This document shows positions 1-29,125 of a DNA stretch of 64,000 bases, piece after piece. Under the pieces are notes generated by a model. It worked only from the letters and a program-made list of their open reading frames with translations, was not told where the DNA came from and searched no databases. This DNA comes from Ferruginibacter sp. (GTDB lineage Bacteria > Bacteroidota > Bacteroidia > Chitinophagales > Chitinophagaceae). The DNA is taken from assembly GCA_014379625.1 (NCBI GenBank), contig JACMLJ010000033.1, forward strand, positions 62,001 through 126,000. The letters are read 5' to 3'. Positions within the stretch are counted from its first letter, which is position 1, and each line of letters opens with the position of its first letter. Made by a program: the position numbers and the translations under genes.

Positions 1-211
1 ATAACTCAATGTCGTTTAAGGTTGAATTACCCTGAAAGTGGATAATATAGCCGCGGATAACAACCCCGTCAGGGTTGAACAAATGAAAACAGACGGCGAA
101 ATAAATTCAACCCCAAAGGGTTGCTATCTGGTTTCTTTATTCTTCCGCCGGTGAAACCGGCGGCTATTCAAATTAAAGCCCTTCAGGCTTAACAAAACGA
201 CATTGATTTAT
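1..211. repeat. Modular intergenic repeat element: terminal inverted repeats (ATAACTCAATGTCGTTT 1-17 / AAACGACATTGATTTAT 195-211) enclosing four short hairpins
   Basis: Terminal IR matches 16/17. Internal palindromes: CAACCC-cgtca-GGGTTG (61-77), CAACCC-caaa-GGGTTG (108-123), CCGCCGGT-gaa-ACCGGCGG (145-163), AAGCC-cttca-GGCTT (176-190). Confidence 0.6.
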
Positions 212-254
212 AACTCTTAAATTTCAGGCGTTTGTTTAAATGTAATCATAAAAA

Positions 255-1325
255 TTATTTTTTCTTTTTACACTTCAGCAAACTTTGGCTCAGTCCGATA
301 TTATCCACCTGCTCTGCAATAACAAAACCGGCCCTTTTGATACAGGCTAAAAAAGTTTCAGCGCTGTACATCTGGCTGTTGCCATTAGCCAGCGCGGTAA
401 AATACAGCGAAGTCTGCTGTAAACAAAAAGCTGCGATCTCAAAACGTTGCTTATCCCAGAATGGCTCTAAAATAATGACCACCCCGTCATCATCCAATGC
501 ATCATAACATCTTTTTAAAATTGAAACAATCTCCTCCTCAGAAAAACAATCCAAAAACTGGCTCATCCAAATGGCATCAAATCCTGTTGGAAATTTAACC
601 GCTTCATCTAATATATTTACCGGTAAAAAAGAAATTCTTTGGGTTAGTCCGAGTTCTTCAATTTTTGATTTTGCCACATTTAACTGCCCCGGCAGATCCA
701 TGATTGTTATTTCAATATCAGTTGAATATTTTGCAGATGCAATGGCCCATTTACCTGTGTTACCGCCGATATCCAGCAATTTTTTCACGCCATTTTTATA
801 CACTTGTGGTAATACCAAAGGAAAGGCGTCATCAGAAAAAAAATGATCAAAAGCAAACCAGCTTTTCTGCACATGTTCGGGTAACTGCGACAAGCCCTCA
901 TAAATCGTTTTCCATTCGCCAAATTCTTTCAGGCCTTCGGGTTTACCATTTTCAATACTTTTATCCAACGCAAAAAGTCCCTTGTAACATACATCATGCA
1001 CAAAGTCCATATTGGTTTTGGTGAGCGGGTCATGCAAAATAAAATAACCGGTTTTTGATAAGGTATACTTATGATCGTTTACCAATACCAATCCCATGCT
1101 TAAGCCGGATTCCAATAATACCCTTACCCCATAGAGAGGCAATTTTACTTTTCCGGTTATTTCTGCCAGTAATAAACCGGTATGACCGTTATCTTCAATA
1201 ACCGACAAAATACCGGAGTTCCTGAGTACCCTTGCCGCCTGGAAGATTACCGGCCCGAATGAGATCCATTGAGCAACCTCCTTTGCCTCAAATGCCGTCT
1301 TAGTATCCTTTCTAAAAAAATTCAT
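255..1325 (-). CDS. SAM-dependent (O-)methyltransferase, small-molecule methyltransferase type
   Basis: LLDIGGNTGKWAIA SAM-binding motif; two-domain architecture; last gene of the biosynthetic operon. Confidence 0.75.
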   Translation of the reverse strand: MNFFRKDTKTAFEAKEVAQWISFGPVIFQAARVLRNSGILSVIEDNGHTGLLLAEITGKVKLPLYGVRVLLESGLSMGLVLVNDHKYTLSKTGYFILHDPLTKTNMDFVHDVCYKGLFALDKSIENGKPEGLKEFGEWKTIYEGLSQLPEHVQKSWFAFDHFFSDDAFPLVLPQVYKNGVKKLLDIGGNTGKWAIASAKYSTDIEITIMDLPGQLNVAKSKIEELGLTQRISFLPVNILDEAVKFPTGFDAIWMSQFLDCFSEEEIVSILKRCYDALDDDGVVIILEPFWDKQRFEIAAFCLQQTSLYFTALANGNSQMYSAETFLACIKRAGFVIAEQVDNIGLSQSLLKCKKKK

Positions 1326-28278: not shown

Positions 28279-28767
28279 TTGGCACAATATTTTCAATTGC
28301 TCCTCAAAACAAATATTTTGAAACATTTTATACTTTTTATCGCAGTTTATTCCTTTAGTGCCGCTAAAGCTCAAAAGATTGATAGCATTTATGTTAACCT
28401 GTATACAGACAGTTTAAAAAAAGGAACCTTTAATTATATCAATATCGATGGATTGTTATCCGATGGAAGGTATTTACCATTAGACAGTACCCATCTTATT
28501 TTCTCCGCTTCAGCAGGTTGGTTTAGCGGAAACTCCCTCTGGATAGATAACAATTTTAGCGACGATAAAGTAAGTGTAAAAGTGATCCTGAGAAAGGCCC
28601 CCGGCACATTTAAACAGTTTGACATTTACATTAAGAAAAAACCTGATAATGAAAAATTGAAGACAGCGGATGAAATTATCAATGAAATGAAAAACAATAC
28701 AAGATCAAAAAGAAAGGGAAATTTATCTTCCGGCAACGGAGTTATCACCAAAATATACCGGGCATAA
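28279..28767 (+). CDS. hypothetical secreted protein
   Basis: Complete ORF with signal-like N-terminus. Confidence 0.5.
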   Translation: MAQYFQLLLKTNILKHFILFIAVYSFSAAKAQKIDSIYVNLYTDSLKKGTFNYINIDGLLSDGRYLPLDSTHLIFSASAGWFSGNSLWIDNNFSDDKVSVKVILRKAPGTFKQFDIYIKKKPDNEKLKTADEIINEMKNNTRSKRKGNLSSGNGVITKIYRA

Positions 28768-28771
28768 AAAT

Positions 28772-28865
28772 GGCAAGTTACTTACATCGCACCGCTCAAC
28801 CATCTACCCTTGCTACCTTCCGGTCCTGGGGGAGTTCAACAGGAGCTGGCCGTATAAGACTTGCC
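28772..28865 (-). ncRNA. ffs: Small bacterial signal recognition particle RNA (4.5S-like)
   Basis: Minus strand: GGCAAGTC...CCCCCAGGACCGGAAGGTAGCAAGGGTA...AACTTGCC; canonical GGAA-capped SRP helix 8 core and closing stem GGCAAGT/ACTTGCC. Confidence 0.92.
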
Positions 28866-29125
28866 GCTGCAAATATAAGGAAGGGAATTTAAATCAATCA
28901 AAAAAAATATTTTTTTTGCCCTTGCCCGTAAAAAGGGAAATCAATAAATGATAGTTCAACATCGCTTACCAGCATTAATAAAATAAAAGGGTGCAACATA
29001 TCTCCAAAAATACTATTAACAACCTGGTTGTGCCTATTTACAAGAATGTTTTCAAACCTTTCTGCCCGGTATCCGGAGGGAAAAAATGAGCTTCCCGAAT
29101 AACTCCATTTGAGGCGCGGGGACGG

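Follow-up and report, generated by a model that had tools for sequence, protein, structure and literature searches.

The window analysed here, a stretch of 64,000 nucleotides from a Ferruginibacter sp. genome, begins with a short, hairpin-rich segment inside a pigment operon, which raises the question of what this segment is and what brought it there. An initial annotation had proposed a MITE mobilised in trans or a REP-like array. Our answer is that positions 7–205 are very probably a non-autonomous MITE of the IS4 family (subgroup IS4), which would carry as a passenger a hairpin array like those flanking Y1 genes and would be mobilised in trans.

The 16/17 inverted repeat described in that annotation is present at 1–17 and 195–211, though the true ends lie further in. 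The outer 6 nt of each arm belong to a 10-bp target duplication (ATTTATAACT) that is partly palindromic, and therefore the whole element is 7–205, 199 bp long, a deleted member of a class whose units measure about 237 bp. All four hairpins predicted earlier were found. The features of the locus are as follows (in the numbering of locus L031, position 10001 is window position 1).

1–6, no strand: right part of the left target duplication, whose full 10 bp (ATTTATAACT) start left of the window (L031:9997-10006)
7–20, no strand: left terminal inverted repeat, CAATGTCGTTTAAG, which lacks 4 bp of the consensus CAATGTCGTTTAGTTAAG
37–38, no strand: deletion scar, 32 bp absent relative to the eight other copies
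61–77, no strand: hairpin C, CAACCCCGTCAGGGTTG
108–123, no strand: hairpin C', CAACCCCAAAGGGTTG
145–163, no strand: hairpin B', CCGCCGGTGAAACCGGCGG, preceded on the other strand by the foot GAATAG
176–190, no strand: hairpin A', AAGCCCTTCAGGCTT, whose last 3 nt are common to the right terminal repeat
188–205, no strand: right terminal inverted repeat CTTAACAAAACGACATTG
206–215, no strand: right target duplication, ATTTATAACT, which equals the left one at 10/10 positions
255–1325, minus strand: methyltransferase-like operon gene of 356 aa, upstream of the insertion

The full unit has the layout A-B-C ... C'-B'-A', where each letter is a hairpin and GAATAGC precedes B. The 32-bp deletion at 37/38 took from the left arm the last part of hairpin A and the greater part of hairpin B; because a further 4 bp are missing at the left end, the window copy measures only 199 bp. 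The region folds strongly, both as DNA on the plus strand (z −8.6) and as RNA on the minus strand (z −6.2), with none of 200 dinucleotide shuffles folding as well in either case. As had been noted, there is no coding capacity: at 199–237 bp, with ends of 18 nt, the element is gene-less.

The genome is a fragmented metagenome-assembled genome (MAG) of 5.65 Mb in 99 contigs, 94% complete. A search of it with bases 1–215 gave nine strong matches, the window and eight others at 86–94% identity, together with dozens more to the element ends alone. With nine copies the element is not single-copy, and its reading as mobile DNA stands. Aligned, the copies define a unit of about 237 bp with ends CAATGTCGTTTAGTTAAG and CTTAACTAAACGACATTG and a mean column identity of 93%; all nine are intergenic, lie beside unrelated genes in both orientations, and two lack a target duplication. 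Some otherwise near-identical copies differ by loops inverted between GAA and TTC (C' in two copies, B' in one), which suggests that the hairpins may form and flip in DNA.

A pattern scan of the same genome for the end sequence retrieved many further copies of the ends, many of them as inverted pairs, and at least 33 short elements bracketed by CAATGTCGTTTAGTTAAG-type ends. These fall into five interior classes of about 237, 259, 183, 90 and 52 bp, with common ends and unrelated interiors; examples of the four other classes are L081:413-671 (259 bp), L049:296-478 (183 bp), L052:397-486 (90 bp) and L062:314-365 (52 bp). Over the 33 elements, left and right flanks agree with an identity of 0.755 at a length of 10, and of at most 0.34 at lengths of 7, 8, 9, 11, 12 and 13; nine of them, the window copy included, have a perfect 10-bp duplication. 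At length 10, flanks taken from different elements still reach 0.522, since the target is itself conserved. Indeed, 47 of the 66 10-mers at the flanks agree with AATGGTGAAT in at least 8 of their 10 bases, compared with 0.2% of random 10-mers. AATGGTGAAT is the unit of the intergenic heptamer arrays used as target; the pattern AATGGTSAATGGTSAAT matches the genome 87 times, its reversed control not once. The flank matches and the 87 arrays together indicate that the elements favour intergenic heptamer arrays, to which preference the window copy is one exception. Tandem arrays of AATGGTG/AATGGTC occur between genes, for instance, at G000:C72:161017-161054 and G000:C99:32725-32755.

Neither DDE_Tnp_1 nor a partner transposase was found in the element's own fragmented, 94% complete MAG, and the DDE_Tnp_1 search in 60 relatives returned mostly other transposases without CAATGTCGTTTAGTTAAG-type ends. 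The partner was traced in the relatives by following the ends to contig ends, these to a transposase C-terminus, and that to complete elements. Genome G123 has an element of 1451 bp whose two ends equal the MITE consensus, with a frame of 458 codons and no target duplication; G095 has one of 1431 bp, with near-identical ends and a direct repeat of 9 bp; and G119 has one of 1404 bp, also with near-identical ends, and a perfect 10-bp duplication (GGGTAGATTG). All three proteins match NCBIfam transpos_IS4_1 (NF033592) above its cut-off as well as Pfam DDE_Tnp_1, and the YREK spacing Y-2-R-3-E-6-K can be read in each. G071, of the same genus, has at least six contig ends at which DNA resembling AATGGTGAAT or ATTCACCATT leads into the identical end and then into the C-terminus of a transposase; the autonomous elements therefore share their target with the MITEs. 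Members of subgroup IS4 have ends of the form -AATR--------WTW----, direct repeats of 10–13 bp and lengths of 1400–1650 bp, and some show marked insertion specificity (De Palmenaer et al. 2008, PMC2266710); CAATGTCGTTTAGTTAAG fits this pattern at every fixed position. As judged from sequence, the ends, size, target duplication and YREK motif of the partner elements fit the IS4 family, subgroup IS4. The window element resembles that subgroup (PMC2266710) in its end pattern, 10-bp direct repeats and insertion specificity, and the autonomous elements of the relatives do so in their 1404–1451 bp and YREK motif; it differs in being gene-less and in an interior that does not match the insertion sequences. 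The search for a matching insertion sequence, which the initial annotation had recommended, was thus successful in relatives, where complete IS4-type elements exist, and not in the MAG itself.

The same ends extend well beyond this genus. An exact scan for the 18-nt end in species-representative genomes gave at least 117 stretches, mostly from Bacteroidota by record title, and the listed loci contain at least 55 end pairs, 36 of them with flanks that agree in at least 8 of 10 bases. One of them, in a Paludibacteraceae MAG from a distant order (L311:2928-3164, CANFFA010000300.1), agrees with the window class in its ends, length and hairpin architecture, and its right-hand 55 nt are 82% identical to that class. 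The other interiors among the matches listed are mutually unrelated and mostly palindromic: z lay below −3 in 27 of the 37 interiors tested (73%), compared with 2 of 111 control segments (2%), both of these from a single 391-bp locus in which control and element overlap. Palindromic interiors are not new by themselves, because the good folding of MITEs is already known (PMC3733652). BrickBuilt and MITE239 of Porphyromonas gingivalis are also short, gene-less and multi-copy, with ends common to insertion sequences, and several MITEs of that species share ends while their interiors differ (PMC4596501). Unlike the window element, with its IS4-type ends, fixed 10-bp duplication and hairpin array, the P. 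gingivalis MITEs have IS5-like ends, short irregular duplications and tandem repeats inside (PMC4596501).

The interior led to a second kind of enzyme. End-trimmed interiors were compared by Blast with 34 Y1 loci and, as controls, with 30 DDE loci, and matches appeared only among the Y1 loci: the window class matched L047 and L046, the 259-bp class matched L045 and L355, and the 183-bp class had one weak match, with none in the 30 DDE control loci. In L047, L045 and L355 the matches lie on both sides of the Y1 gene, and in L047 the arms around that gene, which is the closest in the genome and has an in-frame stop, align with the arms of the element over A, the linker and B. Taken singly these matches are weak, with E about 1e-4 in a small database; what carries the case is their symmetry, the independent matching of two classes and the clean controls. 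The Y1 proteins of L045, L046 and L047 match the IS200/IS605 model (NF033573); as partial proteins, two of them score below its cut-off. They carry the motif Y---Q--HH, as do 25 of the 26 Y1 loci read. This motif is the signature of TnpA-Y1 subclass 1.2, which is reported to be mostly confined to Cyanobacteria and Bacteroidetes and to lack, in general, terminal structures of the IS200 type (Quentin et al. 2018, PMC6006769). The likeness to this subclass (PMC6006769) thus resides in Y1 genes of the same genome that have array-like flanks; the differences are that the element itself has no such gene and that no DNA substrate is described for the subclass there.

Short hairpin arrays lie on both sides of subclass 1.2 genes at L045, L046 and L047 in this genome and at L355 in a relative, and are a possible substrate. 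As a general rule of the subclass, symmetric inverted flanks were not borne out, with only 3 of 25 loci above the 99th percentile of mismatched pairs; hairpins near subclass 1.2 genes number 1.2–1.4 per 300 nt compared with 0.18 in the window, a contrast confounded by coding content. Both the element and stand-alone arrays have GAATAG as foot, GAGTAG being confined to the array by the Y1 gene of L047. These stand-alone arrays, about 69% identical to the element's and without IS4-type ends, lie at G000:C63:177564-177750, G000:C58:73020-73143 and G000:C51:3236-3422, and share another conserved surround, AACTCCTGATCC...GGTAAGGAGTT. By its sequence, then, the element is a putative DDE-type shell that encloses a HuH-type hairpin array.

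In the mechanism that we propose, an IS4-type DDE transposase provided in trans would recognise the CAATGTCGTTTAGTTAAG ends and excise the element, which would reinsert through a 10-bp staggered cut, preferably into AATGGTGAAT heptamer arrays between genes. Most likely, IS4-type ends came to enclose an array of the kind that flanks Y1 genes, the gene itself missing, and the whole then dispersed as one unit; the window copy would have inserted between two genes of the pigment operon, and one of its arms lost 32 bp. We infer both the mobilisation in trans and this history of capture, including its order, that is, whether the ends closed around the array or the array came to lie between the ends. 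The earlier suggestion of a MITE mobilised in trans thus agrees with the nine copies, shared ends, 10-bp duplications, gene-less interior, element-free loci and IS4-type partners in relatives, the trans step being the one that we deduce.

The usual view of MITEs is that each is what deletion has left of a single parent insertion sequence. The element could accordingly be an internal deletion derivative of a single IS4-type insertion sequence, its interior a parental leftover with no link to HuH enzymes; such an origin, the textbook one for MITEs, would explain the ends and duplication held in common with IS4-type elements. We consider it improbable, as five unrelated interiors occur in one genome, no sequence is visibly shared with the insertion sequences inward of the first 18 nt, and the array matches the flanks of Y1 genes and the stand-alone array loci. 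Deletion was disfavoured as the origin for this interior without visible likeness to an insertion sequence.

The alternative of a REP/BIME-type array spread by a RAYT, with incidental inverted ends, draws on the intergenic hairpins in inverted pairs, on the foot of hairpin B, which is near GTAG in L047, and on a gene for a REP-associated tyrosine transposase in the genome itself (L048, NF047646 above cut-off). It is highly unlikely: the flanks of L048 are unlike the array, arrays flank the other Y1 subclass, REP spread does not give exact ends with 10-bp duplications across nine copies, and the same ends hold unrelated interiors. A RAYT was therefore rejected as mobiliser, the element having no GTAG foot, L048 no array flanks, and the target duplications contradicting it. 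The search for a RAYT gene, also recommended earlier, did find one in L048, but with flanks unlike the array. The window element does share with REP, BIME and REPIN sequences and their RAYTs (PMC3116915, PMC3733652) short intergenic hairpins, inverted pairs and a link to a tyrosine HuH nuclease gene; it differs from REP/BIME (PMC3116915, PMC3733652) by the other Y1 subclass, the lack of a strict GTAG foot, and DDE-type ends with a target duplication. The idea of a REP-like array holds, then, in that the interior resembles hairpin arrays beside Y1 (HuH) genes, and fails in that these belong to the IS200-like subclass 1.2, not to TnpA_REP/RAYT, and that the foot is GAATAG, not GTAG. Since three array loci without IS4-type ends exist, a REP-like mode may operate beside the main one.

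That the segment is an immobile structured RNA or terminator of the pigment operon, as its position between two genes of one operon and the strong folding of the transcribed strand (z −6.2) might suggest, is the least credible reading, given nine copies by unrelated genes in both orientations, no Rfam family, a junction without the element in relatives and a window copy that is a deleted version. Window 1–260 had no Rfam match at the gathering score. On the role in termination or mRNA stability that the initial annotation had considered, a terminator scan gave one weak site compared with 0.2 expected. Elsewhere in the window, a Bacteroidales small SRP RNA (RF04183, 88.4 bits) lies at 28767–28873 on the minus strand.

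The non-autonomous IS4-family MITE, as we read it, does not lie at the 3' end of the pigment operon, where it had been placed, but between two of its genes: an FAD-dependent oxidoreductase follows the methyltransferase on the same strand after 342 bp, the element sits within this gap, and ketosynthase-type genes come next. In four genomes of the same genus, with methyltransferases 74–77% identical, the oxidoreductase gene is directly adjacent and the element is absent, so that relatives have the locus without the element, in the form of the orthologous operon junction. A side effect of the element on the operon mRNA is possible.

As far as the literature searched shows, the identity of two of the interiors and the shared shell are new. 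Neither the exact end sequence CAATGTCGTTTAGTTAAG, nor the combination of IS4, MITE and target duplication, nor heptanucleotide target arrays were found in that literature. One set of IS4-type ends is associated with at least five unrelated palindrome-rich interiors in this one genome, and with many more across the phylum, at a defined target and with a fixed 10-bp duplication. The subclass 1.2 Y1 proteins, in turn, gain a candidate DNA substrate open to testing in vitro. Tentatively, and with more doubt than confidence, the ends of subgroup IS4 in Bacteroidota might be a general shell that has repeatedly enclosed and dispersed the hairpin arrays of other systems, including putative substrates of subclass 1.2 Y1 enzymes. 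If so, two unrelated transposition chemistries would act on one element, with a DDE enzyme working on its ends and a single-strand HuH enzyme on its hairpins, and some of the dispersed palindromic repeat DNA of the phylum would be cargo of IS4-ended shells.
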